From the NCBI GenBank assembly GCA_024734495.1, contig JALMQS010000615.1:1333173-1397172 (forward strand): 64,000 bases of DNA, written 5' to 3'. This document shows positions 3,053-62,040 of the stretch, piece after piece; the first letter of the stretch is position 1; each line of letters opens with the position of its first letter. Under the pieces are notes generated by a model that saw only the letters and a program-made list of their open reading frames with translations, had not been told where the DNA came from and ran no database searches. This stretch comes from Forficula auricularia. Lineage: Eukaryota > Arthropoda > Insecta > Dermaptera > Forficulidae. The translations under genes and the position numbers were made by a program.

Positions 3053-3110
3053 AGGTTTATACAAACTCAATATATTTCGGATTATTAGTCCATCATCAGG
3101 AGTTTACAGG
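3053..3110 (-). ncRNA. hammerhead ribozyme-like motif (left arm)
   Basis: Minus strand: AAACTC (stem I), CTGATGA (3099-3093), extra T, stem II GGA..TCC, GAAA (3078-3075), stem III run ATATAT, cleavage base T, then GAGTTT. GAGTTT pairs with AAACTC over six bases. Core bases are intact in this arm. It has the sense orientation for amphiphysin pre-mRNA. Activity is inferred from layout only. Confidence 0.6.
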
Positions 3111-3136
3111 TTAAAAATTGTGTTAAAATTTTTTTA

Positions 3137-3192
3137 ACCTGTAAACTTCTGATGATGGACTAATAATCGGAAATATATTGAGTTTGTATAAA
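3137..3192 (+). ncRNA. hammerhead ribozyme-like motif (right arm, stem II damaged)
   Basis: Mirror copy with CTGATGA at 3149-3155 and GAAA at 3170-3173. The closing pair of stem II is lost (TCG instead of TCC before GAAA) and stem I has one change (AAACTT). It is probably weaker than the left-arm copy. Confidence 0.5.
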
Positions 3193-3712
3193 CCTCTTTG
3201 AGTTTTATTTCATTCACTGTGAAACTACACACCCTTTACTTTATTAATTAATAATGATCAAATAATTAATTATTAAATAAATAATTATTAATTCGAAAAG
3301 TCACAAAAGATTATTAAATTATTAATTATTATTAAATTATTTATTTAATAATTAAATATTTGATCATTATTATTTGATAATTAAGTTGAATTATTGTTAA
3401 GAATAATTATTTTTTGAGATCTAATTGATTTAATATTTTGTATATTTGATGCCGTATAAAAAAATAGTTCTAATTAGAGTTGTTCAGTTTTTTTTTATAG
3501 ATTAAGAATATTTACAGAAACATATAGGTTAAAATATAATTAAAAAACACAACTTGACCTCGAACTACCCTTGCAAGCTTGTTCTAGGTCGGAAAACAAT
3601 AGCGTAGTTTAGCTTCCCCCCTGATATAAATAAACTTTTATTTGAAACTTTTTTTCATATAATGCATTTTTGTTTTGAGTTATAAGATTGTCTCAAGATA
3701 AAAAAAACTTAC

Positions 3713-4640
3713 CAAGTACTTATATTCTTAATCCATTTATTACAATCTATTTTATCACTCAACAAAAATTTTCATTAGTAAAACTAACTTTGCGTCGCTC
3801 TGTGAATTCAATAGTTTAGCCTGCCCAGAGGCCGCAGACAGCAGAAATAGGATTATATTTTCCAAAATACATGAATAAAACTTAGGGAACGTGGTGTGGG
3901 TTTATAGGTTGGAGTTGGTGGTGTTTCAGAATGAGGGTGTGATGTGAGATTTTTAAGTTTTTTTTGTCTTTTATTGGCCAAATAGTCTTAGATGGAAGAT
4001 TTTTTCACAAATTTCCCCGTAAATAGTATCAAATTATAAGGGATTGTGAAATACCAATTCCATACGCCGACATGTACAAAAATGACCTAAAAAACGCCAC
4101 ACCGTCATTTTAAAGCGATTTTTTTTTTCAATTCAATCTTTCCAAAATAAGCATTCGATTAAAATTTTAATACGATTTTTGATTTCAGGGAAAATGAATA
4201 CTTACACATTTTATTAGTAAATTTCAAGTTTGTACATTAATTAGTTTACGAGCTACATTCTAACAGACGGACGGAAAGACAGTTTTGTAACGACAATAGT
4301 TAGATCCCGTTTTACTTTTTAAAAGGAACACTAAAAAATACGATATTTTCTGCATTTTTGAATCGTAAGTTCTAAAGGCAAGGAACCGCAAAATATAACT
4401 AGTAAGTACTCCGCAATAGAAACATTTTGATACCAGAAATAAATTTCTATGATGTTTTATTCTTGAGTTAAAATGGGTATCGGAATCCAGAGACAAATAG
4501 AAAAAAATGATGGGTGAAAATGTTTTATCGAGCAATAAATAATTGATATGAAGAATCGAATGGGTTCCTGTAAAATTTAAATAGATGACTTGATTAGAAA
4601 TGTGACTGTAAAAGCTTTTATTTTTGTGATTGAATTTATT
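3713..4640. other. intron sequence, repeat-like, no gene
   Basis: No exon seen. The stretch 4200-4520 resembles 2270-2540 (both contain a CATTTTGA/AACATTTC block, then TTGAGTT, then AACCGGAATCC or CGGAATCC, then ACAGACGG-like text) and the module near 63470-63920, so it is a dispersed repeat. The small minus-strand open frame at 4260-4535 is part of that repeat and not a gene. Confidence 0.4.
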
Positions 4641-4821
4641 GAAGGTAAAATTTTGTTTTATTTAAATCACACATAATTAATTATAGCTATTTATTTAACA
4701 CAACAAAATAATATATAGTATATAAAATACAAATGCCGATAATCAATAAGTAAAATTTCAATGTAGGTCTAACAAAATTTATTTACACTCTAAAAATTAC
4801 AAATGCCGATATTAGTAGCTT

Positions 4822-5083
4822 TAAAATTATTATAGAAAATCAAGAGAGTTGGCCAACTACTAGATCTGAGATGTTATGGATTATTTTTATTATGTCAGAA
4901 GGGTTGTTTCCCTCCTTTGGGGATTGAACCCGAATGCCACAAAAATGCAATCGCGACACTTGGCTTGGCATTCGGGTTCAATTATCCCAGAGGACAAACA
5001 TCCCTTCTGACATAATAAAAATAATCCATAACATCTTATCTCTAGTAGTTGACCATCTCTCTCTTGATTTTCTCTAAAAATTC
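4822..5083. repeat. foldback of the GTCAGAAGGG family
   Basis: Arms about 4826-4912 and 4999-5083 are near-perfect reverse complements (TGGATTATTTTTATTATGTC on the left; GACATAATAAAAATAATCCA on the right). The centre also pairs: GGATTGAACCCGAATGCC faces GGCATTCGGGTTCAAT. A long hairpin RNA is predicted if transcribed. Confidence 0.85.
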
Positions 5084-5117
5084 AATATAATATTCTCTTA
5101 ATACCTTAGATATAATT

Positions 5118-6390: not shown

Positions 6391-6634
6391 TTTTTCTGCG
6401 ATCGTTCTTATAAGCACCCGATCCCTAAATCCAAATCTAAAGTCGGATGGGGTATTCATTCTTCAGAAAAATCCCTGGATAAGGCGATCGAAACATTGTA
6501 GTTATTTATAGTGTATTATTTGTTGTTGCTTTCACTAAATAATTATAATTAATTATGTGTGATTTAAATAAAATTTTAACCTTAAAAATAGATTACTTGT
6601 TTGATCAGGTTTGATTAAAATAATAATGTGACAC

Positions 6635-6907
6635 CTTAGCTGTTTCTGCGTGAAAGACTTGTTCAGCTGCGAAGAGAGTTTGAAGATTGGTAACCAGAAA
6701 GAGTACTCGGGAATCATACAATGCTGGCAATTCGTCATGCAATTCGCTATTGAGCGACTCATAAGTGCGTCTTGCATCCTCTAATGCCTCTCGTGCTTTT
6801 GATACTTTCACTTCGTCCCGTTTTTTCGGATTTGCTTGAAGAGATTGGACTGTGTGTCGTTGACTGTCGTAGTCAACCAATTTTCGGCCTCGTTTATCAA
6901 TTTTTTT
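6635..6907 (-). CDS. Amph: amphiphysin, BAR-domain exon (third visible coding exon)
   Basis: This 273-base exon encodes 91 residues from KKIDKRGRKLVDYDSQRH through ELHDELPALYDSRV to FHAETAK. This is the central part of the BAR dimer; the basic run KKIDKRGRK belongs to the positively charged lipid-binding surface, and LVDYDSQRH and ELPALYDSR are hallmark amphiphysin motifs. The acceptor is TTTTTTCAG at 6910-6908. The best donor, AAG|GTGTCA after 6635, departs from the GTAAGT consensus, but both the reading phase (0) and the gap-free alignment with the next exon require it. Open reading continues past the donor for a few codons (VSHYYFNQT) and is then stopped, so skipping this donor would truncate the protein. 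Confidence 0.96.
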
Positions 6908-7414
6908 CTGAAAAAATAAATTAATTAATAAGAATATATATAATAAATACTTAGATATACATATCATATTCGTTAACAGTTATTAAAGAATAATTAAAAA
7001 AAAAAATTATGAAGAAAAAACAACAGGATTTTATCAGCAGACAAAACTGCGAGTCCGAGGGTGCCGTAGGTTATATCTCTCAAAATACTTGAGATATCAA
7101 ATTCCTTTTTATATATCGTTGATATGGAGAGAATGTTCGGATTTTTGAGAGTTTTTCATAATCTTTTCCCGAGTTATTTCTAAAAAATACACCTAAAATG
7201 TCTATTTTGGGGCTCACTATACCATCATTTTAAAATGAAATATATTGAGCAGTACCTGTATAAAAACCTCATTAAGAAGAATTAAGATAAATTTAATCAA
7301 AATCAATTTACTTTCAAATGAGGGTGTAGAAAATCGTCAAAATGCCCGATTTTTGTACCTAACAAGATTTACAAGCCACTGGACGTAAAATTATGAAAAA
7401 AATATATATACATA

Positions 7415-7991: not shown

Positions 7992-9642
7992 TATGTATAA
8001 ATCTCGTCACTTTTTTTGCTTATGAACGTCCAATAAAAAGGATTTTTATTTTTCAAGTATTTTGAGAATAATGATCATTATTTTTATCTTTACAAAACAA
8101 TTTAGGGGCTAGGCTCTTTATCAATATTTCGTAACAAGGGTTCGAAGCATAAATTTGGTGAGATTAATATATTTAGATCCATCGTTAAGAATCCATTTTT
8201 TCAGATTATAATATTTACAAAATATAATAAATTATATATTTAAAATATCTAAATGTTTTTTGTTTTTGTTTTTTTATTATTATTTCTTTAATAATTATTA
8301 TAATATTAAATCGGTTTTGCCGAAAGTAGCAGTTTTTGAAAAATACTTCACAATAATTGATGTTGAAGCATCTTAAATAAGATTTAAATAAGATTTCTCC
8401 TAATAAATTTATTTGATAGATAGGGAACCTCCGTATGTCAATCAAAATTGTCATTTGGCCGCTTTAATATGTCCATCATGCAAGTGAAGAAATTTTTTCG
8501 AGGACTAAAGAAAAATTTATTTTCTACTCTTTAGTTGATTTTGAATTGAAATCACGATTTTTAAGATATTTTATATTTTCTACGTTTCATAAGACAAGAC
8601 TTCAAAGTGTAAAGGTAATACTCTTTAAATTAAATTTTTCTCTATTAATTACTGGAATTAATAAAATATTGTATTGTCATAACAAATACGTACGTATGTC
8701 TGCAAAATTTCAAGAAAGTCGACTTTGTAGAAGTGGGCCAAAATTCGATTACATTATTCTATTTACCTAACGAAATTCGTATTTGACTTTGTGTGAAAGA
8801 CATTTATAATATCTTGTTTAGTCGTGAAATTTCTTTGTAATATTTACATTATATTTTTTAAAGTTTGGTTTAAATTTTTCTCTATTAATTCCTGAAATTG
8901 ATGAAATATTGTATTGTCATAAGAAATGTATATGTGAGTGAAATTTAAAAAAATTGTTCACAAAATTCTACCAAGACAAACAGACAATCAAGTTAAATGA
9001 GAACATTTGTAATAATAAAAACGATTTGATCATTTTTGATTCTCGCCTGCAGGGTAGGCAGCCGAAAGCGCAGCTCAGTAGGTACGCAAAACCCTTCGTC
9101 ATTCAGATAGCTAAATTTAAATAGCCCCAACAAAAATATCGATGTACTCTATAGTTTTTTCAAGCCACTTTTCTATTTTGAAAATGTATTTATTTTAAAA
9201 TTAAAAAAAAAAAAAATAATAATAATAGATTTGAGTAAAATAATAAAATAAAATGGAGATTTAAAGTATAATGAAAAAAAAACCAATTAGATTTTAAATA
9301 ATGTCATTTTCTTTTCTTTAAAAAGGGACGTTTCACATTCTTTTTTCCTTCTTCTTCGGGGTTTAAAAGGGTCAATGAAGGAAGATTGTAATTCCTTTCA
9401 TTTTGTTTCTTTTAACAGTCCTATTTGGCGTTATAGTTTATCAATAATATCAAAAGTTTTATTTCTTTTAAACCTCCTAGAAAGATGGAAGATAATCCAA
9501 AAACGTCAGTTTTTAAAATATTGAAAATGACGTTTCAATAAATCATCTTTGAAATTTGTTCTTTTCATTATCTTTGGGCTGCCTTTCCAATAAATTTAGA
9601 TGAATCTACCCATCCCTCTCTCCAAGAATATACTTCTAATGT
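7992..9642. other. intron sequence, no gene; degenerate duplication
   Basis: AAATTTTTCTCTATTAATT plus ATTGTATTGTCATAA occurs at about 8630-8690 and again at 8872-8925, a diverged tandem duplication of roughly 245 bp. A GC-richer fragment at 9045-9110 (CTGCAGGGTAGGCAGCCGAA) is unplaced. Positions 9180-9300 are A-rich. No exon recognised. Confidence 0.4.
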
Positions 9643-10562: not shown

Positions 10563-10622
10563 TCTTAAATCGTAGAATATTTCGAAAGGCCGCCTTCATC
10601 TTCAGTCTAATATAAATATTTC
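10563..10622 (-). ncRNA. hammerhead ribozyme-like motif
   Basis: Minus strand: TAGA, CTGAAGA (10605-10599), extra T, stem II GAAGG/CCTTTC around a CGGC loop, GAAA, then ATATTCTACG. Stem II is well formed. TCTA can pair with TAGA, but then the cleavage triplet is non-canonical, so activity is doubtful. Sense orientation in the amphiphysin intron. Confidence 0.5.
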
Positions 10623-10649: not shown

Positions 10650-10720
10650 TGAAATTGTTATTTAACTGAAGATTAGGCAACCCATTCGAAACTATGTATA
10701 GTCTCATATAAACACAGCAG
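10650..10720 (+). ncRNA. hammerhead ribozyme-like motif, ACTATxxTATAGTC subtype
   Basis: Plus strand: CTGAAGA at 10666-10672, GAAA at 10688-10691, stem III ACTA-TGTA-TAGT, cleavage C at 10703, then TCATATAAACA, whose distal part can pair with TGTTAT upstream of the core. Stem II (TAGG..CCATT) is imperfect. Shares GAAACTAT..AGTCTC with the ribozyme at 14978-15045. Confidence 0.5.
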
Positions 10721-11303
10721 ACCACAACAAAAATTCATGTTTATAGCACGCATGAGACTGTGTGGTAATTTGCTGAGAACCGCTGGTATATATACACATA
10801 AATATTTAAAAAGAAAAATCTATAAAATATTATTAACAATTATCGTTGTTGACTTAATTATTGGGAAAAAGAACACTTTGATAAAACGCTTATTTAGTGT
10901 TAAAAGCAACGTTTCATTCATTAATTCTTGGACATTCTCTGGCTAACAATTACAAAGAATTTTTTCAGATGCAGATTCAAACTTAAGAAGTTGCTTAACA
11001 AGAATATAATACATATATAATAGATGCTTTGAGCATATATTAAAATATATATTACAATATTATTCTAGCCAGTAAAAATTATTGTTAAAAATCTTGATTT
11101 TTATCCTTCACTCATATGGTATGTATGGTAGGCACATATCCATAGTGAAGAAGATTTTTTGTCGTCGAGCCTAAAGAAAAATAAGAATTAAAGGAAAAAA
11201 CGTTGCTAATATAGGCGTTTTATTAAGTGACATTTTCCTTAATAATTCACATTTCTAGATATAATATAAATTGAGAAAGTGATCGAAAAGAGAAAAGTTT
11301 TAC

Positions 11304-11494
11304 CCGCATTTCTGGGAATTGGCTCTGATAGGTGTTTAGCGGTATAAGGACTTGGTCGCCAAGTTTATGTGTCAGATCTTGCCAGAGCATTTCTATATTC
11401 TGCCCTTGAACGTAGAGTAAATCATGACCAACCCAGTTGCTCTCGTAGACCTCGTTCAACGAGTCCATTAACGTTTTACTCGCCGTCTGAACCG
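11304..11494 (-). CDS. Amph: amphiphysin, BAR-domain exon (second visible coding exon)
   Basis: 191-base exon giving VQTASKTLMDSLNEVYESNW, then a segment rich in polar residues, then HKLGDQVLIPLNTYQSQFPEMR. It forms the second half of the first long BAR helix and the turn into the second. HKLGDQVLIPLNTY is strongly diagnostic of invertebrate amphiphysin. The acceptor GTTTCCGCAG ends at 11495; the first two bases CG complete a GCG codon with the final G of the exon at 19729-19864. The donor is CGG|GTAAAA after 11304, phase 0. The introns on either side are about 8.2 kb and 4.4 kb and are filled with transposons. Confidence 0.96.
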
Positions 11495-11944
11495 CTGCGG
11501 AAACAGAAAAACATAAACGATTATTTCTTGTAATTAGTGTATTTAAGAAAAAAATGGGTCAGAATCGAACCAGGGACCTTTATTTATTCTCCTAGCTATC
11601 CTCGGCCTGCACAAAAATATGATAATATACAAGACAAGGCATTTCCAAATAGAATTTTTATTTAGATATGAAAAACAATCATATCTCATAATATACTTAA
11701 TCTATCATTATTTTTTGTCGTTAATAAGAAGAAAATGAATAAAATTATATCATTTGTTTATTAATATTTAAGTTAAGGCATTTCTGAACGCTGACACATA
11801 CAAAAATCATCTAAAAAAGTCATTTTGAAGTCAATTTAGCCTTATTCTACTTTCTTTACAGCAAAATCTCAAATCCATGACTAAAAAAAACACCAATTAA
11901 AATTTTAATACGATTTTTAATTTCGAAAAAGAATAGAAGTCTCC

Positions 11945-14886: not shown

Positions 14887-15106
14887 AAATTGAAAGTTTT
14901 TGCCGAGAGTAGCAGAATTTTTATATATTGAAGGAGACAATAAAAGAGTGCGTCTTCTGCTGGAATTATAAATTTTATTTATTTATAACGAGACTATAGT
15001 TTCGAGGGCTTTGCCCTCTTCATCAGTCTATTACAATGTATTCACAGGAATTAATTTATGAATTTATAATTCCAGCAGAAGACACACTCTTTTATTGTCT
15101 CCTTCA
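14887..15106 (-). mobile_element. non-autonomous ribozyme-bearing retroelement with 12-bp target duplication
   Basis: AGAAATTAATTT occurs at 14875-14886 and again at 15107-15118, an exact 12-bp duplication bracketing 220 bp. Read on the minus strand, the element starts TGAAGGAGACAATAAAAGAG, has a complete hammerhead in the middle, then an inverted copy of its first ~75 bases, and ends CTCGGCAAAAACTTTCAATTT. This architecture, inverted repeats around a hammerhead plus target duplication, fits a non-autonomous Penelope-like insertion. Related fragments: 36841-36945, 48545-48650, 61490-62175, 15765-15800. Confidence 0.75.
14978..15045 (-). ncRNA. hammerhead ribozyme, best-formed copy
   Basis: Minus strand: stem I 5' strand TTGTAA-TA-GA, core CTGATGA (15026-15020), extra A, stem II GAGGGC-AAA-GCCCTC (6 perfect pairs), GAAA (15003-15000), stem III AC-TATA-GT, C as cleavage base (14992), then TC-G-TTATAA. 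TC pairs with GA and TTATAA with TTGTAA (one G-U pair) across an internal loop, the usual site of the loop-loop contact in fast natural hammerheads. Predicted cut is between 14992 and 14991. Orientation is sense with respect to amphiphysin transcription. Confidence 0.8.
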
Positions 15107-15118: not shown

Positions 15119-15982
15119 CTTAATTTCTATTATTCTAGGATCGTTCTTTTGACTTCTAGGTAAGAAAATATTAAATCGTAATGAATTTCTGATTTAGATA
15201 TTTATCATTTAAAATTATTATTAATTTCATCGAAACTGCAAACAGTCTACCTAAAACAGTAAGTGGGAAGAAGAGAGTGATAGAAAGAGAGCGAGCTAAA
15301 GTGGGTTTGGTTTGATCGGTGTTGTTGTTGTTGTTGTTGTTGTATTGGGATGGTGGCTGCTGCTGCTGGCTGCCCCCCTAAGGGCATTCTGCATTCCATC
15401 GCTCTCTTCGATATCATGACATACACATACATACACACGGCGTCAATGATATTATCAGGAAAAATAGGAAAATATTGTTAGTTCCTTTAATTCCTTAAAA
15501 CTTGTAGAAATACCCAAATACCTTCGATCCTCAACACTTGAATATTTGTTAAATGTTTATGCCACCCTTATGATGCGAGGGTCTCTTTAGATATTTAGAT
15601 ATTGGGCATTTTTATATCAGTAACATTAAATAAGCCGGCAATGTGCCAGTCGAACAGAATACCGAGGGTCAACCTTATAACTTTCACTAATTAAAATAAT
15701 TTTGTTTTGCCTAGCGTAGTAGTAGAGTTGTTGATTCTTAAAGAAAAATCAATGAGGTTGTCCTCTGCTTGATGCATATAATCACACATATCGTCGCTGA
15801 TCTTACAAAACCGCGTTAGTCCGATTTTTGGTCAATCTGTCTATTGAAAAATTATTAGTCTATTCCAATTTAATTTCGCGCTTCGAACAAATTCTTAAAC
15901 CGCATGTCTAAGTATAATTTAAAAAGCTCGTAAGTCTGACTTATTTATTAAGAGGAAACAAAATAATAAAAATGTGTATACC
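15119..15982. other. intron region with a (GTT)n tract and unique-looking GC-richer segment
   Basis: 15240-15440 is richer in G and C than most of the window and includes GTTGTTGTTG repeats (polyglutamine codons CAA on the minus strand) and CTGCTGCTGCTGGCTG. A 63-codon minus open frame there is low complexity. It could be an alternative 5' exon or promoter of amphiphysin, but I see no convincing splice pair. 15765-15800 (CCTCTGCTTGATGCATATAA) is a scrap of the ribozyme element family. Confidence 0.3.
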
Positions 15983-16609: not shown

Positions 16610-17059
16610 CAAATTTTACCCCAGCGAAAAAACAATAATATTAAATGTCAAAATATAGATAACATACAGCCCTTGTATAAAGAACAACTAAAAATGAAAA
16701 AAATAAAAGTGGCAATATTTAAAACAGCTAAAAGAAGTTTACCACCTTTTTTATGATCTTCTACCCTTGTATAATGTATTTTTTTATGTTAAATTTTATA
16801 TTATTATTTGCAAAGTGTAAAATAAGTTTAATAAATATCTAAAATTAATAAACACTTATATTATTTCTATATTGGTGTACTATAATTTAAGTATTACAAC
16901 CAGATATTTCTGAACTAAAAGTTATAATTAAGACTCAAAACCTCGAAAGTCTCAAAATATACTTTTATTATGAATTCTAAATAAAATAAAGCATTAAAAT
17001 CGTTTAATATAGCAACAATATTATGCTATAATAAAACAAATAATTAAAGTCGAATCGTA
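16610..17059. other. AT-rich sequence, no feature seen
   Basis: No coding potential and no clear inverted repeat. It probably includes the 3' part of the transposon that carried the preceding pseudogene. Confidence 0.3.
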
Positions 17060-17096
17060 GGGAGTTGGATCAAGTAAATTAAATTAAATACAAGTT

Positions 17097-17158
17097 TTTG
17101 ATTAAATATGCCACACGTTTCGTTGCTGTTTTGCAGCTTCTTCAGTGGCTCATTTATT
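17097..17158 (-). ncRNA. hammerhead ribozyme-like motif (left arm)
   Basis: Minus strand: GAGCCA, CTGAAGA (17145-17139), extra A, stem II GCTGC..GCAAC (one mismatch against the other arm's GTTGC), GAAA (17121-17118), ACGTG, TGGC. TGGC pairs with GCCA, and ATTTA farther out with TAAAT. The cleavage base is G here, which should block cutting; the other arm has A at this place. Confidence 0.5.
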
Positions 17159-17261
17159 AAACTTATTTGTCAGGATTTTTACTACGAGAAAAAACATTTC
17201 AAACAGTATTCTGTTATTATTCTATGTTTTTTCTCGTAGTAAAAATCCTGACAAATAAGTT

Positions 17262-17322
17262 TAATAAATGAGCCACTGAAGAAGTTGCAAAACAGCAAGC
17301 AAACGTATGGCATATTTAATCA
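17262..17322 (+). ncRNA. hammerhead ribozyme-like motif (right arm, core damaged)
   Basis: CTGAAGA at 17276-17282, stem II GTTGC..GCAA, ACGTA as a good cleavage triplet and TGGC/GCCA stem I. However, CGAAAC has become GCAAAC, losing core G12. Each arm therefore keeps what the other lost, and the ancestral copy can be read from the pair. Confidence 0.5.
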
Positions 17323-17365
17323 AAACTTGTATTTAATTTAATTTAAAAGTCTTGTCCAACTCCCT

Positions 17366-18411
17366 AACTTATTTATTAGAAACTATAGTTTCGAAGGTTT
17401 ACACTCATCATCCATTTTGATACTTGTCAGTATTCAGTGACTTAACTTAAAATTATGAAAAAATTGCCTAAATTCCTCGTCATGTCTTTTATAATGTTAC
17501 AAATAAGAATGAATATGATATCCCAAATATTTTGGAATTTATAAGGTACGCAACCCTCCGACTGGCCAGTATATGAAAAAAATAATTTATAGTACCTATA
17601 TGTTAGAAGGGTTGTTTCCACCTCCTCGGAAATCGAAAATGAGTGCCAAAAATGAGCAATTCGGGCCAATTGGCTAGACTGTGAGGTGAATCTCTATGAC
17701 ATATGTATCACAGTAAATATTTCACTCAAAGATTTAAATCTCTTGGTCTAATGATTCTAAAATTAAACAAATAGCCATGCCCATATAGTTTAAAAATGTG
17801 GTCGAAAGCTTGTGGAATGACTTTTCCAAATTGAATAAAAGAGTTCGATTGCCCCACCATTTAGTTACTTGGTCCGGATTGCTAATTTGTCACGGTAGTT
17901 TGATTCAGGAAGAGGTAAAAACAAACCCTTAAATTTAATGCCTATTTCTATCGGCAATTTAATTCTTATGTTCAATTAGGAATAGGGCCTAGAACTTATA
18001 ATTAACTTTTTGCCCCTCCCCTCCTATTTCGGACTCAGGAAGAAAAATATTGATATCTCTTTTTAAATATCAACATTATTGGTTTCTTGTTTTGAAAATT
18101 TTAATCTATTTTTGATCTTCGCATTTTGGGTCTCAATCACATTCACTTAAATAGTTATTTCCTTAAGGACTTACCATAAAGAGTAAATTGCTTAATTTGT
18201 CACAGATCGATCAAAGTGATCTAAGACTAGAGATCATTTTAAATATTTTTTTTTAATGTCCATCCCTATTACATATTTATATTTCTTTTAAAATATAAGA
18301 GCCTTTTTATAGTCAATTTCAATTTTCTTGGCTTCTTGGAGTTAAATTTTTATAAATTTAAATTTTTGAGAATCTACCAAATATAATTCTGATTTCAAAC
18401 AAATTTTAATA
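17366..18411. other. intron region with a ribozyme remnant and a GTCAGAAGGG fragment
   Basis: 17366-17415, minus strand, reads GATGATGA, then CCTTCGAAACTATAGTTTCT, then AATAAATAAG: a decayed relative of the ribozyme at 14978-15045. 17595-17705 (TTAGAAGGGTTGTTTCCACC .. GACATA) is a degraded GTCAGAAGGG foldback. The rest is AT-rich with no feature. Confidence 0.4.
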
Positions 18412-41840: not shown

Positions 41841-41892
41841 ATCTAATTAGGCTGGATATTGGGATCTTGGACTTGAGAAAATAATTAAAAGC

Positions 41893-42290: not shown

Positions 42291-42632
42291 TAGTTATTTT
42301 CTCAAGTTCAAGATCTCAATATCCAGCCTAATTACTTTTCAAAGATGGACGATAACAACCCAAAAATACAAATCTAATTTTCATGAAAAAATATTTCTTT
42401 TTGCACCCTTTACCAAGAGAGAACATTTTACCAAGTCCCCTTACTAAGTAGTAGTGTAAATTCTTCGTAATTTCAAGTTAATATTTTAACGTAGCTTCTA
42501 ATAGTAATAGATAGAATTTTGGGACAAGACTATCTTTTTAAAAATTTAGACTTGTAAGAGCATTATATAAAATTTAAAAACTTAAATAATTAAAAAACAA
42601 AATTTGAATCACATTAATATTAGACATTAAAA

Positions 42633-43583
42633 AACCGACTTCAAAAAAATTAGATGCAACAAATAAAATAATAATAACTTAAAATAAAATAAAATACACT
42701 AAAAGGTATAAAATAATTATCTAATTTAGTTACAACTAAACGACGAAATATTAACATGAAATTACTTTTTGAAGTCGGTGCCAAACAAACTATACCTATA
42801 AGCGAGCGTACCCGCCAAACGTACTAAGTAAGATCCGTCGAGTTCGATTCATGAAATGTATATGTTTGGCACCTGCTTCAAAAAGTAATTTCATGTTAAT
42901 ATTTCGTCGTTTAGTTGTAACTAAATAGGATAATTATTTTATACCTTTTAGTGTATTTGATTTGATTTTTAAGTTATTATTATTTTATTTGTTGCATTTA
43001 ATTTTTTTGAAGTCGGTTTTATTATTTTTATAAAAAAAATTTTATTTTTCTCTTTTTAGTGTTGTTATTAATAGTGACTTAATATAATACCTTGCATGGA
43101 TCTAGTAAGAGAAAGCGTCGGGCGAATGAATCAGAAAATGATAATAAAATTCAATTCATAAATATAGAAATTCATTCGAAACGTTTGCGGGTTTTAAATG
43201 AATGTTTTGAGATTTTTTTATAAAATATTTTATTTATTATAATTTCGATTATTTGGTCATAAGAGTTGGAGATTTACGTTATTTCGTCATTGGTCATATC
43301 TTCAGAACTTGACCAAATTAATATGGGACCGCCCCTAAGGTACCCTCTTTCCAATAAAAAAAGAATCATTAAAATCGGTTGATAAACAAAGAAGTTGTGC
43401 CTGAACAAACATATCAAAAAAGGTCCAATACCAATGAAAAAAAAACGGGCCAATCGGAAACTAGACTGAACCCAATGCAAAAAAATCATCAAAATCGGTT
43501 CACAATTGACAGAGATATGAAGTAACATAGACACAAAAAAAATTCAGTCGAATTGAGAACCTTCTCCTTTTTTGAAGTCGGTT
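42633..43583 (+). mobile_element. ACCGACTTC-family element, copy 3
   Basis: Begins AACCGACTTCAAAAAAATTA and ends TTTTTGAAGTCGGTTA. It keeps the subterminal foldback and an uninterrupted GACTTAATATAATACCTTGC segment, so it serves as the reference for the insertion in copy 2. It lacks about 120 bp of copy 1's 3' half. Noncoding. Confidence 0.85.
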
Positions 43584-48365: not shown

Positions 48366-49284
48366 AGAGCTCGTTTGTGAATTACATCCAGAATAGCAAG
48401 AGGATGCTTGGAGGGTCCCCTTCACATAAACTAACTATATTCGAGACAGGGAAGAACATTTGTTCCTAGAGGAGCGTGAAAAGTACAGTGTTTAAAAATG
48501 CCTTTAGTACTTAATATAAAGCCTATGTTAACCTTTCAAATATATAAACAATTAATAAGGAGAAATCAATGAGTTTATTCTCTGCTTGATGCAAATTAAA
48601 CCTATATAATATATATAATTTATTTGTTAGAAACTATAGTTTTAAAAGTTTGATTTTTATAATAAATTAATTAATGAATTGAAATAATTTGTAATGAAAA
48701 AAGGCCGAATGCGGTTTAAAGTCGCTGGTTCAAGAGCCCCTGTGGCTAGCAATAGACCCGCTTTAGGCTGGCCTCGCAGCTAGTATTTTTACTAGTATAG
48801 TAGTAGTAGGTATATGATATTTTGTCCCCCTCCCAAACCAGTAAGTCACTTGGTCACAGTGCCACTGTTTAGCTGGTATTAAATAACATACCAAATGATG
48901 ATAGCAATATAGGTAGATAGAGGTAGCGATTTTCTTTTTTCATATATTTAATGATCACAGGTTTATGTAATGGATGATAAATATTTCCGACAGAAATGAA
49001 AATTAATGAAAGCCCATTGGTAAACGTATCATAAATCAAAATTCCAATTCCTTATTGAAAGTGATCTCTATTATTATTAATCCTAAATCTGTCCATTTAT
49101 AGAAACATTCCAAGTAGCAGCAACACTCCATATTTAGTGAAGCGCTGATCTCTCTGATATTGAATTCATATGAATATACATTTGGATTTTTTTTTCTCAA
49201 TTTATTATTAACATACTCTTTTAAAGATGAAATAATATTATAACTATGTAGATTAAAAATTCAGTCTATTGGACAAAGCCTTTT
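48366..49284. other. no gene; ribozyme-element scrap
   Basis: 48545-48655, minus strand, reads AAAACTATAGTTTCTAACAA, ATAAATTATATATA, then TTTGCATCAAGCAGAGAATA: a degraded relative of the element at 14887-15106 retaining only the 3' half of its hammerhead. 48690-48790 has TCGCAGCTAGTATTTTTAC, similar to the tip near 47990. The rest is featureless. Confidence 0.4.
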
Positions 49285-49525
49285 TATTGAAGTTCTTCTT
49301 CAATTTTTGTACAACGTTTCGTCTCTCTCGAGACTTTTTCAAGTACTCAATTGGTTAGAACAACATTGGTTGAAATAAAGATAAAAATAACTGAGACATA
49401 GTAGAATTTTTTTCTTTATTTCAACCAATGTTGTTCTAACCAATTGAGTACTTGAAAAAGTCTCGAGAGAGACGAAACGTTGTACAAAATTGAAGAAGAA
49501 CTTCAATAAAAAAACTTTGTCCAAT
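49285..49525. mobile_element. foldback with decayed hammerhead motifs in both arms
   Basis: GTACTCAATTGGTTAGAACA and its partner TGTTCTAACCAATTGAGTAC lie in arms of ~105 bp, nearly identical out to AAAGCC/TTTGTCC. Both arms have TTGAAAAAGTCTC..GAGACGAAACGTTGTAC, so the core changes predate the duplication or were homogenised. Confidence 0.85.
49440..49495 (+). ncRNA. decayed hammerhead-like motif (right arm; mirrored at 49298-49352)
   Basis: GTAC, TTGAAAA (for CTGAAGA), A, stem II GTCTC-GA-GAGAC, GAAA, ACGTT, GTAC. Stem I GTAC/GTAC and the outer CAATT/AATTG pair, and stem II has five pairs. The catalytic C3 and G8 are replaced by T and A, so cleavage is not expected. Confidence 0.45.
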
Positions 49526-49789
49526 AAACTGAATTTTTAATCTACTAATTATAATGGACATTAATCAACATAAATTATAACTATGTTTTTTTACTTTAGA
49601 GTATTTTCAATTTTAGGTGAGTGTATGCGATGTAAAGTATACTAGAAGATAATATAGGTAAATGTATATTTATTGTATATTCCTTTTAAGAAAATTTATT
49701 GCCCTCATATCAAAAAGTTTTTTTATATGTGTTTATTTAACTTGAAAGTTTATAATAGGAAAATAAGCACAAGTTTTTATGTGTGACTC

Positions 49790-49850
49790 CTTTATTTATC
49801 AGCCAACGTTTCGTCGACTTTGCCGACTTCTTCAGGGCTTCAAATAGTCA
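49790..49850 (-). ncRNA. hammerhead ribozyme-like motif (left arm), intact core
   Basis: Minus strand: TATTTGAAGCC, CTGAAGA (49835-49829), extra A, stem II GTCG-GCAAAGT-CGAC, GAAA, ACGTT, GGC, TGA, TAAATA. GGC/GCC and TATTT/AAATA form a two-part stem I around an internal loop. Confidence 0.65.
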
Positions 49851-49892
49851 TGACACACATTCATAACAAGAAAATTTAGACGAATGTGTGTC

Positions 49893-49957
49893 ATGACTAT
49901 TTGAGCCCTGAAGAAGTCGGCAAGGCAAAGTCGACGAAACGTTGGCTGATAAATAAA
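49893..49957 (+). ncRNA. hammerhead ribozyme-like motif (right arm), intact core
   Basis: Same design as the left arm: CTGAAGA 49908-49914, A, GTCG 916-919 with CGAC 932-935, GAAA 49936-49939, ACGTT, predicted cut after 49943. The stem II loop is four bases longer (GCAAGGCAAAGT), showing that loop length varies while the stem is kept. Confidence 0.65.
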
Positions 49958-49990
49958 AAAGTCACACATAAAAACTTGTCTTTATTTTTA

Positions 49991-51014
49991 ATAGACTTCA
50001 AAAAAGGAGGAGGTTCTCAATTCGACTGAATTTTTTTGTCTATGTTACCTGATATCTTCGCCAATTGTGAACCGATTTTGATGATTTTTTTGCAATAGGT
50101 TCAGTATAGTTTCCGATTGGTAAAAATATACCTTTTTTGTTGTTTGTTCAGGCATAACTTCTTTGTTTATGAACCGATTTTAATCATTCTTAATGCGTTT
50201 GGATCAGTATAACTCCAAGATAGTCAAGATACCTAACTATTTATTTATTTTTTGTATGTTCAGCGAGAACTTTTTGCCACGTGGAGCGATTTCGATGATT
50301 CTTTTTTTATTGGAAAGAGGGTACCTTAGGGGTGGTCCCATATTAATTTGGTCAAGTTCTGATGATATGATCAATGACGAAATAACCTAAATCTCCAATT
50401 TTTATGAGCAAATAATCGAAATTATAATAAATAAAATCTTTTATAAAAAAAAATCTTAAAACATTCATTAAAAACACGCAAACGTTTCGAGAAAATTTCT
50501 ATATTTATTAATTGAATTTTATTATCATTTTCTGATTCATTCTCCCGACGCTTTCTCTTACGAGATTCATGCAAGGTATTATATTAAGTCACTATTGATA
50601 ACATCACTAAAAAGAGAAAAATAAAAATAATTTTTATAAAATAAAAATAAAACCGACTTCAAAAAAATTAAATGCAACAAATAAAATAATAAGAACTCAA
50701 AAATAAAATAAAATGCAGTAAAAGATATAAAATAATTATCTATTTAGTTACAACTAAACGACGAAATATTAACATGAAATCACTTTTTGAAGTCGGTGCC
50801 AAACAAACTATATAAACGAGCGTACTCGCCAAACGTACAAAGAAAGATCCGTCGAGTTCGGTTCATTAAATGTATATTTTTGGCACCGACTTCAAAAAGT
50901 GATTTCATGTAAATATTTCGTCGTTTAGTTCTAACTAAATTAGATAATTATTTTATACTTTTTAGTGCATTTTATTTGATTTTTGAGTTCTTATTATTTT
51001 TTTGAATTCAGTTT
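49991..51014 (-). mobile_element. ACCGACTTC-family element, copy 4
   Basis: Minus-oriented copy from ATAGACTTCAAAAAAGGAGG (its 3' end) through AAAACCGACTTCAAAAAAAT to TTTTTTGAATTCAGTTTT. The subterminal foldback lies at about 50652-51014. The terminal ACCGAC is mutated at both extremes. Confidence 0.8.
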
Positions 51015-53211: not shown

Positions 53212-54104
53212 AGAAATCAACAAATACCTGTTTGTTTGCTTATGCTTTTATCATGACAACGTGTCCATTTTTGAGCCTGAAATCTTGAAAGTAGCGAGTC
53301 GAAATCTAATCACAAATATTTTGGCACGAAAATGAGCTTGCTAGGACATTCCGATCTTGAGTTATCATGGTCTCAGAATCTATGTTTCAGACATTTTAAA
53401 CACAAACAGCAAAAATATATATTTATTGACATAATTGAATGCTACTATGACTGTCGAGATACCACCACATAAAACAACAACATCATGAGAATTTCAAGCC
53501 CGTAACTCCAAAACCAAAATTTCCAGAAAGGCCAAAATTATGTAGATATATTTATTTATTTATTATCTTTGTTTTCTAACAAACATATCAGAAATACTAA
53601 CTATAATATCTTATGTATTTTGAATACTCTAATCACAAGTTTTCAATATGATACCCCTCATTCGATGTATTTCAATAATTTCGGACCAGCTTAAAATGTG
53701 AGGAAAATAAATATATCAGTTTAAACCAGAAATATTAACATAGAAAAACAGAAGGAAGAAAATATGTAAATAAGAAAGGAAAAAAGCTAATTGACATCAT
53801 CAATATTCTTAAGAAACAAGTCCATCAATAGAAATAAAAGAAATAGGGAAAAAATAAAAATTAGTCACCATTTCTCCATTTAGATATATTTATATGTATT
53901 ATCAAAGGATGAATCAGTTTTAGTCCGAAAGAATGAATTAAGTGTAAATATAAATTTTTGTAATTAAAGCTTGGTAGTTGAAAAGTTTGAAAAAAAAAAT
54001 GTATTTAATGTTTAATGTACTTAAATAAATATTTTAAAGAACTTAATTTTATTTATTTTCTTAGAAAGACGGAGTGGTAAGCGAAATAAATAGGTTATAA
54101 TGAA
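53212..54104. other. no gene
   Basis: 53250-53560 contains dispersed-repeat text (TTCCGATCTTGAGTTATCAT) similar to 63640-63670. The rest is AT-rich. Confidence 0.3.
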
Positions 54105-54127
54105 AGGCAGTCCATAAATTATTCACA

Positions 54128-54186
54128 TTTTATTCAATTTCCGACGTTTCGGAGACCTTTTCTCCTTCTTCAGAGTATTGAATAGT
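54128..54186 (-). ncRNA. hammerhead ribozyme-like motif (left arm)
   Basis: Minus strand: TATTCAATACT, CTGAAGA (54173-54167), extra A, stem II GGAG-AAAAGG-TCTCC, GAAA (54150-54147), ACGTC, GGAAATTGAATA. GC-type cleavage triplet GTC. Stem I: GG with CT, then an internal loop, then GAATA/TATTC. Confidence 0.6.
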
Positions 54187-54382
54187 TATTGATGGGTGAG
54201 TATAACTCGGTTCCCATTTGTCTCTCCTTTCAGTGATAGCAACAATATTACAATATTTTCCAACATTATAATCATAAGTGAGGTAACCAAGTACACTTAT
54301 GATAATGTTGGAAAATATTGTAATATTGTTGCTATCACTGAAAGGAGAGACAAATAGGGAACCGCATTATACTCACCCATCA

Positions 54383-54446
54383 ATAACCATTCAATACTCT
54401 GAAGAAGGAGAAAAAAGTCTCCGAAACGTCGGAAATCGAATAAAAT
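54383..54446 (+). ncRNA. hammerhead ribozyme-like motif (right arm)
   Basis: CTGAAGA 54399-54405, A, GGAG, loop AAAAAAGT, CTCC, GAAA 54423-54426, ACGTC, predicted cut after 54430, then GGAAATCGAATA. GAATA pairs with an upstream TATTC in the left-arm version; here that strand is CATTC, so one pair is lost. Confidence 0.6.
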
Positions 54447-54484
54447 TCAAATAATTTATGGACCGCCTTTCATTATAACCTACT

Positions 54485-54632: not shown

Positions 54633-55234
54633 CTTCAAAAATTGCGTTTTCTAGATATAATTCCATTTTATAAATTTCATCCATTTAAAGTTCTTAATGG
54701 TAAAGTAAAAAAATAAATAAAAAAATACTTTAAAAAAATTTAAATATTTGTTCTAATATTATAGGTATATATATATATATATATATCAGTGGCGTGCGGT
54801 TCCTGGATGCTGTGGATGCGGAGCATCCCTAAAATTCCAAACATTATGAGTATCTTCATAAGAATATAAGGTCTCGACTTCAAATTTCCGGAAGATCTTT
54901 AAATTTTCAAATTATTATCTGTTATTTCAAATATTTCTATATAAAAAACATTTTTTGTTTTATATAGAAATATTTGAAATAACAGCGAAAATTTGATCTT
55001 CGGAAATTTAGTCGGAACCTTATTCTTATGAAGATACTCATAATGTTTGGAATTTAGAGTGCTCCACATCTAGCGTGACCGCACGTATTTGTCTATATAT
55101 ATATATATATACCTATAATATTAGAACAAATATTTAAATTTTTTTTAAGTATTTTTTATTTATTTTTTTACTTTACCATTAGAGAACTTTTAAATGGATG
55201 AAAGTTATAACATGGAACTATATCTAGAAAACAT
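54633..55234. repeat. palindrome interrupted by the assembly gap; inner hAT-like end
   Basis: Centre near 54953 (TATATAGAAATATTTGAAATA to the right mirrors the left). Arms run outwards through CATTATGAGTATCTTCATAA and TATATA tracts to TTTAAAGTTCTTAATGG (left) and TAGAGAACTTTTAAATGG (right), then the gap. CAGTGGCGTGCGG at 54787 resembles a hAT terminus, its partner ACCGCACG near 55078 being degraded. Confidence 0.75.
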
Positions 55235-55334
55235 NNNNNNNNNNNNNNNNNNNNNNNNNNNNNNNNNNNNNNNNNNNNNNNNNNNNNNNNNNNNNNNNNN
55301 NNNNNNNNNNNNNNNNNNNNNNNNNNNNNNNNNN
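55235..55334. other. assembly gap (100 N)
   Basis: A run of exactly 100 N, a conventional placeholder for a gap of unknown size. It falls in the right arm of the palindrome centred on 54953, consistent with assembly failure at an inverted repeat. Confidence 0.99.
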
Positions 55335-56429: not shown

Positions 56430-58045
56430 TAGGGGTATAAGCATACTGAATCGGCTCCCGAAAAATAATTTAATGATACTTAAGGGATATATAGATACTA
56501 ATAAAATAATAAGATCCTGAAAGTCTTAGATCCCTAACTCAATTGGTTTTTGAGAAAAAGCAAAATATATAAAAACAGACAAAAAAATTCTCAGGATTGA
56601 TCGAACCGATTGATCTAAATTTTTAATATGTTTTGGGGAATGATAATAGCTTCTAGGAAAAAATTATGAGCTTTATAGGTTAATTAGATCCTTGAAAAAA
56701 AATTGTTTTTCTTTTAATTTCAATTTTTAACCATGATACAATTTTGGCACAATTATGAAACTATTTTTATTTTTCAAACCTTATCTATTTCCCTATAATA
56801 CTAGTACCTTTTCAAATTTTGAAAAAAGCTACCCCATAGTAGAAAAAAATAAAAACCAATTTATTTTCTTAAATAATCAAATGAAAGCTTAATAAAACAT
56901 ATAAAAAAAATGGGTTTTAATTTTTTCTATTATGGCGTACCTTTTTTCAAAATTTGAAAATGTACTAGTATTATAGGAAAAATTTTTAAGAAAAAAATAA
57001 AACCGACTTCAAAAAATTAAATGCAACAAATAAGATACACTGGAGGGTATAAAATAATTATTATCTTATTTAGTTACAACTAAACGAGGAAATATTAACA
57101 TGAAATTACTTTTTGAAGTCGGTGCCAAACAAACTATACCTATAAGCGAGCGTACCCGCCAAACGTACTAAGTAAGATCCGTCAAGTGCGATTCATAAAA
57201 GGTATATGTTTGGCACCGACTTAAAAAAGTAATTTCATGTTAATATTTCGTCGTTTAGTTGTAACTAAATAAGATAATAATTATTTTATACCTTTTAGTG
57301 TATTTTATTTGTTGCATTTAATCTTTTTGAAGTCGGTTTTATTTTTTCTTAAAAATTTTTATTTTCTCTTTTTTAGTGATGTTATTAATAGTGATCCTAT
57401 CATCAGAACTTGACCAAATTAATATGGCACCATCCGTAAGATACCCCCTTTCCAATAAAAAAAGCATCAAATCGGTTCATAAACAAGAAGTTAGGTCCTG
57501 AACAAACCTAACACCTAAAAAGGTCTAATACCTACGAAAAAAATGGGACCAATCGGAAGCGTGAGCTGGAGCCAATGCAAAAAAGTTTTCAAAATCGGTT
57601 CACAATTGGCGGAGATATGAGGTAACATAGGCACAAAAAAAATCAGTCGAATAGAGAACCTCCTCCTTTTTTTGAAGTCGGTTAAAAATAGATAAGATTT
57701 GAAAAAAAAGTTTCATAATTGTGCCAAAATTGTAACATGGTTAAAAATTGAAATTAAAAGAAAAAACGTTTTTTTTTTCAAGGATCTAATTAACCTATAA
57801 AGCTCATAATTTTTTTCCTAGAAGCTATTATCAGTCCCCAAAACATATTAAAAATTTAGATCAATCTGTTCTGGTCAATCCTGAGAATTTTTTTTCTGTT
57901 TTTTACATATTTTGCTTTTTCTCAAAAAACCAATTGAGTTAGGGATCTGAAACTTTCAGGATCTTATTATTTTATTAGTACCTACATATCCCCTAAGTAT
58001 CATTAAATTATCTTTCGGGGGCCGATTCAGTATAGTTATATCCCT
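56430..58045. repeat. 1.6-kb palindrome with nested insertions
   Basis: ACTGAATCGGCTCCCGAAAA (56447) faces the right arm ..TTTCGGGGGCCGATTCAGTAT (58037). Arms of about 330 bp are near identical (CCTGAAAGTCTTAGATCCCT against AGGGATCTGAAACTTTCAGG). The loop holds a second foldback (56790-57000: TACTAGTACCTTTTCAAATT facing AATTTGAAAATGTACTAGTA) and ACCGACTTC copy 5. Confidence 0.85.
57001..57683 (+). mobile_element. ACCGACTTC-family element, copy 5 (shortened)
   Basis: From AACCGACTTCAAAAAATTAA to TTTTTTGAAGTCGGTT, lacking about 390 bp of the copy 1 interior (the TTGCATG..GGGTTTTAAATG segment). The subterminal foldback is retained. Noncoding. Confidence 0.85.
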
Positions 58046-59735: not shown

Positions 59736-60049
59736 TCGAGAATGACTCTTTTTGCATCCTAGAAAGAGTTACAGAAGAATTTTCAAAGGTATGATCTAAA
59801 ATGAAAATATTCGGAAATCCGGGATGAGGCAGTAAGAAAAATTGTATTTTCATTAAGGCTTCGCTAGACAGCTAGGCAAGAAGCCTGCTAATATAAAAAA
59901 ATACTGTCGAAAATCAGAAATCGCTTGAGGCGTTTGCCATCAGTGATCAACAGCTTTTTAACATAATATTTTTTCTTGATTTAAATAAATTAATTGAGTA
60001 GGAAAGGATTTCAGAGGAATCGGATCAAAAATAAATACAAATAGCACAT

Positions 60050-60100
60050 TGTAAATTGCGACGTTTCCTTATATTCAATCTTCTTCAGACTTTTATTATA
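60050..60100 (-). ncRNA. decayed hammerhead-like motif, solo
   Basis: Minus strand: CTGAAGA (60088-60082), A, GATTG.., then GGAAACGTCGCAATTT. Core halves are recognisable, but stem II no longer pairs and no mirrored arm is visible. Confidence 0.35.
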
Positions 60101-60129
60101 GCATTTTGTTATATGATATATTTTTTTAC

Positions 60130-60380
60130 TTTATTTTTATAATGATATTGATTCAAGAAGAAGTTGCGCCAAAACAGTGTAATCCGAAATGGACTCTTGT
60201 ATCGTGAAAAGAAGACATTTTTCAGATCGGAGTTGTATCTGTAGACGTGGATCTTGAAAGACTAAAGGATATATATGTATACAGAAAGACCATCGGGGAA
60301 AGTGAGTCCCAGGCTTGAGATGTCATAGGGATATTCGAATTGGTGAATGCGTTTATTCAGTTATTATCTAATTTAATCGC
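60130..60380 (-). pseudogene. non-LTR retrotransposon 3' fragment
   Basis: Minus strand: GCATTCACCAATTCGAATAT (as in AFxNSxxP of relatives), TATGACATCTCAAGCCTGGG, CACGTCTACAGATACAACTC, and end GCAACTTCTTCTTGAATCAA. Same family as 5118-5545 and 59455-59735, opposite orientation; several stops. Confidence 0.65.
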
Positions 60381-61727
60381 TAATGAGTGTTGAATGTTTG
60401 AAAATCCTGTTGCCTTGACATTTATTTATCCTCATTGATCTAGCGGAAACTAACAAAAGATTGAACAAAAAACATTTCTTGCATTCAGAATAAATGTTTG
60501 TTATTCATCCAATCGGGGGCCAATAAATGTTAGGGGGATAGAATATGCGCAACATTATTAATTCTACATATTTTAAATTTATGTCACTCCTATCGTGATT
60601 TTCGCCAGTATCATTTAATACAGTGATTCTCAACCTGGGTTCCGCGGAATCACAGGAATCCACAAAAGGAGGTATGAGGTTCCCTGCGCATAGAGGTCAA
60701 CCCCTCAAAAAATTTGTCATGTAAAGAAAAAAATACTAAATTTATATTACCTTATAGTCAAATAAAACCATTGATACTTAAGATTGCGATGAAGATTACT
60801 ATTTTTGTTCAATGATACCATTTTTGTTGCTCTAAAGTTCCTTAACTTACTTATAATACAACGATTACGTTACATTAATTTAACTAATGTACTAATTAGT
60901 AACACAAATGAAAACACCATTTAAATTATTTTATTATTAATTATTATGTTATTAATAACGTTTGAAATAATATTGTTTTTCAAATAGATGAGAATATTAT
61001 TTATGAATACCTATAGTTACATTGAATATGTAAAAAAAACCTGTCCGATCCGAAAGGGGCATATCGTCGCACTTAGAGTGTAAACCTGCTAACTCACAAC
61101 AAGGAAATTTTACAGGGCAGAGAAAAAACAAACAAAATTTAATATTGTTGTTAATGGAAAGAAACTATTTTTCACTTTTTTTTCTACAACTTAATAATTA
61201 ATCGTAATTTTAAGTAGCAATTTTACTTGGACGATGCTGCATCTCTTTTTCTTTCGAACGGTATTAATATGTCATATATGATAAAAAATGGAGTTAGCTA
61301 GAGTTTGCACTCTAAGCCGACGTATATGGGTATCCCAATGACATTACCAAAAAAATTTAATACACAATAATACTCACTTGAAAATAAAAATGTTTAAGGA
61401 GTGCTTAATTTAAAAATGCACGTTTTTTGTGTGCTCCAATTACTTCCCAAAATAATCTAGAACAAATTTTTAAAATCACACGACAACACACCAGCTCAAC
61501 GGACGGCGGTATTTTTTATATTTGGAAGGTATATAAAAAAATTACACGATGTTGAGTAATTTGACGAAAAATTTAATATGTCATATTTTAGTGCTAGGGG
61601 TTCCTCAGAAATAATAAATGTAATTGCTCCCTTAGGGTTACTAAAGAGAAACAAAGAAGGTCCTCTGCTTGATGCAAATAAGCATATACACATATATATC
61701 AAGACGATATATCTGTATATATATTAT

Positions 61728-61785
61728 TTTATTTGCATTTGAGGACTATCAAATTTCGAGGACTTGGTCAGCCTTCTTCACTATA
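61728..61785 (-). ncRNA. decayed hammerhead-like motif (left arm)
   Basis: Minus strand: GTGAAGA (for CTGAAGA), A, GG..GTCC, TCGAAA, TTTGATAGTC, CTCAAATGCAAATAAAATA. The cleavage triplet GTC is kept; C3 of the core is lost. Confidence 0.45.
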
Positions 61786-61984
61786 TAATCTATTTTCTTC
61801 ATCGAGCTATCACATGGATACAGAACTTGCTAGTCTATTAGGCTGGTCAGCTGGAATGCCAGTTAAACAGATATAACAAACTGCTCCAGGATACTGGGCC
61901 TAGTTTCTAGCATTCCAGTGAGCGAAGGAACACCAAGCTTTCAATATCCATAAGATATTGACTCCATGAGAACATTTATAATTG

Positions 61985-62040
61985 AAGAAAGACTGATGAT
62001 TGAAGATCAAGCCTCAGGCTATAGTCTCAAACAAATAAAT
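61985..62040 (+). ncRNA. decayed hammerhead-like motif (right arm)
   Basis: CTGATGA at 61993-61999, then stem II-like GAAG..CCTC, CAGGC in place of GAAAC, TATAGTC, TCAAACAAATAAATAA. The 3' half matches the ribozyme at 14978-15045, but GAA is destroyed. Confidence 0.45.

Follow-up and report, generated by a model that had tools for sequence, protein, structure and literature searches.

The 64,000-nucleotide stretch of Forficula auricularia DNA analyzed here (the window; contig JALMQS010000615.1 of assembly GCA_024734495.1, positions 1,333,173 to 1,397,172) most probably carries many independent and mostly old insertions of several families of Penelope-like elements (PLEs), in a genome of the animal type. 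In this reading, which we hold with high confidence, the unit of insertion is a pseudo-long terminal repeat (pLTR) with a minimal type I hammerhead ribozyme, and usually two 5′-truncated copies lie head-to-head, with their 3′ template ends outermost and their hammerheads facing outward. The inserts are flanked by a target-site duplication (TSD) of 11–14 bp, and a G-poor tail of about 30–50 nt is found on one arm only. A sequence-only reading of the window had proposed a foldback family of non-autonomous PLEs with self-cleaving RNAs. Our analysis supports Penelope-type minimal hammerheads, as judged by covariation, inside PLE-type insertions, as judged by TSD and one-sided tail. As an alternative to a separate non-autonomous family, the copies may be 5′-truncated insertions of autonomous PLEs. 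Loci are named below by their position in kb; part of the work covered 271 kb, i.e., the window and flanking contig DNA on either side, and negative values lie before the window start.

The hammerhead core order, CUGANGA followed by GAAA, occurs far more often than expected. The pattern CTGAWGA-N(4-30)-GAAA had 22 matches on both strands of the window, against a mean of 2.86 and a maximum of 10 in dinucleotide shuffles. When an adjacent stem II of at least 4 bp was demanded, 10 cores were observed, with a mean of 0.48 and a maximum of 3 in 300 shuffles. The repeated core order reported at many loci is thus real. The pattern goes on into the flanking contig DNA, with 35 motifs in the 271 kb as found by a looser script, a few of them weak. 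Pattern matches outside the hammerhead set lie at 1982 and, within another kind of repeat, at 35272, 43282 and 50359. That such motifs arise by chance in AT-rich palindromes might seem to be favored by Rfam, which reports no hammerhead here; the stem II-paired cores (10 versus 0.48) and the locus-specific stems speak against it. Shuffle enrichment together with within-locus stem pairing and covariation rule this explanation out for all practical purposes.

The best-preserved hammerhead lies on the minus strand at 15000–15026, with a predicted cut between 14992 and 14991. Single plus-strand hammerheads are found at 24687–24715 (predicted cut after 24719; ATG at the stem II start) and at 28128–28152 (predicted cut after 28162). 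A further plus-strand core, at 807–836 with a predicted cut after 841, belongs to an element at 0.8 kb whose outward partner lies 1 kb off, outside the window. Minimal PLE hammerheads with a core and short stems like those seen here were reportedly described by Cervera and de la Pena in 2014 and by Lunse et al. in 2017. We found no difference from the published minimal forms except at 49.3 kb, where both arms carry the core TTGAAAA (49317–49342, minus strand; 49452–49477, plus strand), deviating at positions 3 and 8 together. This C3U/G8A exchange looks like a compensatory change of the C3–G8 pair and was probably present already in the source RNA.

Stem II differs between loci and pairs within each of them (GAGGGC/GCCCTC, GGCTA/TAGCC, GTCG/CGAC, GGAG/CTCC, GGGT/ACCC), as had been noted from the sequence, with the exception of 60.1 kb, where it is unpaired. 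Stem I is formed by the bases 5′ of the core together with the ones directly 3′ of a UH dinucleotide. When stem halves were dealt among 13 families, with cross-locus pairs given the same freedom as within-locus pairs, the real pairing was never reached in 100,000 permutations, neither for stem I nor for stem II. An alignment of ten families with loops removed, from which 10.6L, 17.1 and 60 were left out as families with no convincing cut, showed pairing in 86.7% of cells versus 49.5% in shuffles. In 36 cells both sides had changed, compared with 12.5 in shuffles, and frames shifted by 1–3 columns paired at only 30–43%. Changes between families are therefore compensatory in stems I and II, contrary to the outcome that would have spoken against a ribozyme. 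The choice of cuts in this alignment had already taken stem I into account, which biases its figure for that stem upward; stem I is judged more fairly by the permutation test.

Segment III, from GAAA to UH, is mostly a self-complementary run such as ACGU, ACGUGU, AUAUAU, AUAUAUAUAU or ACUAUAGU. In 10 of 13 families (nine without 10.6L, where it has 2 nt) the entire segment is self-complementary; the remaining ones are 0.8, 10.6R and 17.1L. Such a run could pair fully only between two RNAs. The motifs thus have, as in type I hammerheads, a UH preceding the cut and a stem III that can form at least between two molecules, but the scan demanded a U before H17 and accepted only UH, so that the outermost pair of stem III was forced and UH is no independent test.

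Six palindromes of the window carry an outward-facing motif in each arm. They comprise those at 3.1 kb (3075–3099, minus; 3149–3173, plus), 17.1 kb (palindrome 17039–17377; left arm 17118–17145, minus; a decayed partner core on the plus strand at about 17276 in the decayed right arm), 42 kb (41916–41944, minus; 42233–42261, plus, with one stem II mismatch), 49.3 kb, 49.8 kb (49809–49835, minus; 49908–49939, plus) and 54.2 kb (54147–54173, minus; 54399–54426, plus). Loops between the arms are short (13–26 nt) in six palindromes of the window. The loci at 15.0, 24.7 and 28.1 kb have one hammerhead each, and long centers or unequal arms. At 24.7 kb, the other arm contains the same sequence minus 22 nt that span stem II and GAAACG. 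At 10.6 kb, two decayed motifs that differ from each other diverge, one on the minus strand (10580–10605, no convincing cut) and one on the plus strand (10666–10691) with a decayed stem II and, by eye, a stem III that could form within one molecule. A decayed pair, likewise read by eye, is present at 61.8/62.0 kb. The weak minus-strand motif at 60.1 kb (60064–60088) lies in an inverted repeat that matches another repeat family. The statement that most copies occur once per arm hence holds if decayed arms are counted; a motif in both arms is found at about half of the twelve loci. The mere presence of an inverted repeat says little, because the region is palindrome-rich in general, with 97 palindromes in the 271 kb, most of them without hammerheads. 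Families that share only short stretches of arm sequence show the same anatomy, and inverted head-to-head or direct pLTR copies, or both, were found in the window and elsewhere in the 271 kb. In some families, an ATG is located at the start of stem II.

Duplicated target sites and tails mark these structures as insertions. In the window, direct repeats of 12–14 bp flank seven of ten palindromes, in a search that allowed an optional extension on one side; 5 of 600 random placements reached 12 bp. The inserts span 2953–3248 (TSD TAATAATGATCAA at 2940–2952 and 3249–3261, the second-ranked repeat, the first-ranked one lying inside both arms; tail on the left arm), 14887–15106 (TSD AGAAATTAATTT; left-arm tail with CTGCTACTCTCGGCAAAA), 24417–24789 (TSD TAAAATTGAAATT; left-arm tail, on the arm that has lost 22 nt of the hammerhead), 27577–28244 (TSD ATCATATCTTTT; left-arm tail; an internal 136-bp tandem repeat), 41849–42365 (TSD ATACAAATCTAATT; right-arm tail), 49250–49573 (TSD ATTATAACTATGT; tail on the right) and 54043–54484 (TSD TATTTTAAAGAAC; left-arm tail). 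For the 17.1 kb palindrome no TSD was found, and none of at least 11 bp for the old palindromic insertion at 61644–62178, which has decayed hammerheads in both arms and a right tail with CTGCTACTCTCGGCAAAA. The palindrome at 49742–50001 adjoins sequence common to many repeat copies, which we take to be RTE-like, and the direct repeats around it are too short to count as a convincing TSD.

Over the 271 kb, a TSD of at least 11 bp together with a one-sided tail of at least 15 nt was found at 14 of 20 hammerhead palindromes, with TSD lengths of 11–14 bp. Among the controls, a TSD of this length was found at 6 of the remaining 77 palindromes and in 19 of 1500 placements made at random, 17 of the latter with a one-sided tail. 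The hammerhead list for this count left off the weak or decayed motifs at −193734, −169895 and 10575, one of which sits in a TSD-bearing palindrome counted among the six others, whereas those at 49.3 kb (two), 17.1 and 62 kb were added by hand. Moreover, three of the six (−88.7, 65.4 and 68.7 kb) are themselves copies of hammerhead families. At all 14 loci, one arm lies within 8 nt of the duplication, as the search required for one side, and the other extends 18–48 nt further. The informative point is that tail-free cases are missing among true TSDs, since most random hits were one-sided as well. The 18 tails obtained with 3.1, −88.7, 65.4 and 68.7 kb added measure 31–53 nt from the arm boundary and contain 4–13% G and 56–72% A+C. 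Blocks that recur in the tails of different families are TGTTTCACC...ACC.ACACC and CTGCTACTCTCGGCAAAA. In the 28.1 family, one arm ends about 84–87 nt past the cut in three of three palindromes and the other reaches the tail; the third palindrome matches to +95, through bases that are also part of its TSD. At the tailless junction, microhomology averages 2.39 nt versus 0.68 nt across loci (0 of 100,000 permutations), a value inflated by chance extension of TSD and arms, by which about 1.1 nt would be expected according to our estimate. We therefore regard it as a lead.

Motifs resembling CTGCTACTCTCGGCAAAA also occur on the minus strand at 8315–8332 and 15705–15722, with no hammerhead recognizable by eye upstream; these are probably old PLE ends.

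Both a TSD and a tail on one of two inverted pLTRs agree with what is known of PLEs. In Adineta vaga, the relevant sections of PMC3846280 describe Penelope elements with an inverted pLTR beside direct ones, a 31-bp tail on one inverted pLTR, TSDs of 8–10 bp and junction palindromes that are most often head-to-head. These sections establish inverted pLTRs, one of them tailed, as hallmarks of PLEs; the foldback is therefore a known layout, and the suggestion that it was the unusual part does not stand. Common to the A. vaga Pen families and the insertions seen here are head-to-head inverted pLTRs, an optional tail on one pLTR (31 bp in A. vaga), palindromic junctions, TSDs and AT-rich targets. 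In contrast, TSDs are longer here (11–14 versus 8–10 bp) and the inserts are short, with no coding region recognized; hammerheads are not mentioned in the sections of PMC3846280 that we draw on. At −88.96 to −88.50 kb, two direct copies and one inverted copy of the 3.1 family are enclosed by a 13-bp TSD, an arrangement that resembles the A. vaga layout of two direct and one inverted pLTR.

Minimal hammerheads in PLE pseudo-LTRs number thousands per animal genome, according to the passages used from a review (PMC7761336), which also describe minimal type I motifs of PLEs that lack the non-conserved part of helix III and are possibly active as dimers. A second point of comparison is the PLE of Anolis. 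As far as the excerpts of PMC11167929 go, its protein cuts and extends both DNA strands and prefers AT-rich targets. Reverse transcription begins internally on the RNA, at two neighboring sites of which the main one is located in an AC-rich stem-loop 111–118 bp into the open reading frame (ORF), and the hammerhead cut lies 26 bp into the ORF, which by subtraction places the start sites 85–92 nt 3′ of the cut. The Anolis hammerhead needs protein to cleave, insertion in vitro does not require cleavage, and reads ending at the hammerhead cut were not detected (same excerpts). The earwig insertions are alike in that the hammerhead lies about 85–92 nt upstream of an AC-rich, tailed start region, in the presumed extension of both target strands, and in the ATG at the stem II start of some families. 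They differ in that the two start positions here appear as the tailed and the tailless arm of one insert. In sum, the insertion families are largely known in kind, and the foldback is standard for PLEs.

Several results weigh against our assignment. No Rfam hammerhead model matched at any threshold used, even when isolated pieces of 91–101 bases were searched, so that the covariance-model check proposed earlier turned out negative and the motifs do not belong to a hammerhead family as Rfam defines it. A search of the genome (1.06 Gb) with RF00163 likewise gave none at E 0.001, but it carries no weight, as no more than 73 of 118820 candidates received a score and the controls were also without match. 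We do not treat the Rfam outcome as decisive; its likely reason is that these variants lack a canonical stem III and have an extra nucleotide after the core, and the Rfam negative lacked a positive control for this hammerhead variant. Folding of seven single hammerheads placed both native stems in the minimum structure in two (49.8 and 42 kb) and in part in three (15.0, 54.2 and 3.1 kb), whereas they were not formed at 28.1 and 24.7 kb (z-scores +1.0 and +0.65). The entire palindrome at 49.8 kb folds into one long hairpin in which the hammerhead is buried. PLEs are characterized by a telomerase-like reverse transcriptase, often accompanied by a GIY-YIG endonuclease. No reverse transcriptase or GIY-YIG domain of PLEs was found in the 10 ORFs scanned out of 30 of at least 85 aa in the window, and no genome-wide protein search was made. 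Finally, six of the 20 hammerhead palindromes had no 11-bp TSD in the 271-kb search; among these, 3.1 kb has its 13-bp TSD with narrower arms and −9.5 kb has one of 10 bp. Strong Rfam matches to microRNA families were long hairpins below the gathering score and give no evidence of microRNAs.

Other mobile elements could in principle carry such motifs. A foldback or MITE-type (miniature inverted-repeat) DNA transposon with hammerhead-like sequence in its inverted repeats would move as a palindrome, and the abundance of hammerhead-free palindromes in the region fits this picture. We nevertheless consider it very improbable, as families with little common arm sequence keep the same anatomy, tails are one-sided and the centers vary within a family: in the 28.1 family, arms begin at −14/−47, at +1/+1 and, for one arm, at +33. 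Retrozymes, i.e., small non-autonomous elements with type I hammerheads that pass through circular RNA, have to be considered since, in the parts of PMC7229834 used here, animal genomes carry both them and PLEs. However, they form head-to-tail tandem repeats of 150–450 bp. This layout was not encountered; in the 271 kb, a pair of copies in direct orientation was seen, by eye, only at −88.7 kb, where the core of one is mutated and an inverted copy lies alongside. The chance that the insertions are retrozymes is accordingly close to negligible.

How would PLE insertions acquire this form? Twin priming is the mechanism that we consider most likely; like cleavage of the RNA, it is an inference beyond the observed motif, covariation, outward layout, TSDs and one-sided tail. 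An element protein, presumably encoded elsewhere in the genome, would make a staggered cut in AT-rich DNA, and both target 3′ ends would serve as primers on PLE RNA. One of them would be extended from the far end of the tail, the other from a start site closer in, perhaps aided by a microhomology of few bases. The two cDNAs would be joined at their truncated 5′ ends, giving outward-facing head-to-head copies. In this reading the hammerhead is a conserved passenger of the element RNA and, given its minimal stem III, would be active chiefly in RNA dimers or when assisted by protein. The proposal of twin priming connects the in vitro extension of both strands to the genomic layout of the copies; the literature covered, which leaves most primary PLE papers aside, makes no statement that links the two, nor one on twin priming in PLEs. 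The strict one-sidedness counts against simple twin priming, as independent start sites should yield some two-tailed or tailless inserts, with the reservation that the search required one short side. Since two independent primings leave it unexplained, an ordered priming process is likely. The microhomology at the tailless junction fits such ordered priming, although part of it is chance extension.

The main rival to twin priming is snap-back of a single cDNA, which would fold at its 3′ end and self-prime the second strand, thereby creating the palindrome. Self-priming from palindromes at the inverted junction is argued for rotifer PLEs in the sections of PMC3846280 cited above, and the short loops of six window palindromes, like the 4-nt center of the palindrome at 68.7 kb, would suit it. 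Snap-back predicts, however, a tail on both arms, whereas one arm stops 30–50 nt short of the tail. The near-fixed tailless end also disfavors it, as do the long centers or unequal arms at 15.0, 24.7 and 28.1 kb. We therefore see snap-back as a possible but somewhat doubtful route.

If hammerheads cut the template RNA in living cells, copies might end at the cut. A hand count in the 271 kb gave about 28 copy ends within 60 nt of the predicted cut on either side, leaving aside 15 rows of the query 49944+ that are flanking repeat. Three ends at two loci lie at most 1 nt from the cut, where about 0.7 would be expected if ends were even. One is that of a 15.0-family fragment on the minus strand (36842–36945), which extends through the tail and whose 5′ end at 36945 is the first base after the predicted cut (position 0). 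The other two belong to one insertion, the 28.1-family palindrome at 68.7 kb, where both copies (68791/68796) begin at +1 and 4 nt apart; this pair scores +3 against the −114425 reference. Further ends lie at −3 (24.7 kb, left arm) and −6 (−88624). Some 23 other ends are scattered, five arms of the 3.1 family ending near −50, and a few ends were limited by the query. A general rule that copies have their 5′ ends at the hammerhead cut is thus not supported, as most ends lie elsewhere. Moreover, the end at 36945 could have another cause, because the fragment adjoins what appears by eye to be a truncated long interspersed nuclear element, whose ORF gave no Pfam match. The three ends are a lead and suggestive only. 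That RNA cleaved by the hammerhead is a template of PLE reverse transcription in vivo, with some copies ending exactly at the cut and the two arms arising by ordered asymmetric priming, at the tail without homology and at the nearer site by microhomology, is a speculation that we regard as unlikely.

The window holds other features as well. An exon with a BAR domain lies at 6605–6979 on the minus strand (Pfam E 2.6e-16), and by eye an amphiphysin/bridging-integrator-like exon was seen at 11247–11558 on the same strand, with no BAR match found. If this exon reading holds, part of the insertions would lie in introns of a gene of the amphiphysin/bridging-integrator type. A second palindromic family of about 320–450 bp (36357–36801, 42631–43020, 50683–51000 and 56978–57360) has no recognized hammerheads and, in the palindrome search of the 271 kb, no 11-bp TSDs; it is possibly a MITE. 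ARAGORN reported a tRNA-Ile (TAT) at 24209–24302 on the plus strand, which may be a pseudogene and scored 25.8 in Rfam, under the cut-off of 29. A run of exactly 100 N at 55235–55334, adjoining the palindrome at 54646–55232, is probably an assembly gap.

What the window contributes is several PLE families whose insertion scars are unusually clear, with a TSD, a single tailed arm and an almost fixed end on the tailless side. Such scars open to counting both the integration route of PLEs and the question whether PLE hammerheads are active in living cells. The in vivo activity and role of PLE hammerheads are called a mystery in the passages cited from PMC7761336. If copies genome-wide were to pile up at the predicted cut, hammerhead action could be read from DNA alone; otherwise, the insertions would amount to a catalogue of known elements. 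Should cleaved RNA indeed serve as template, the earwig genome would archive self-cleavage events.

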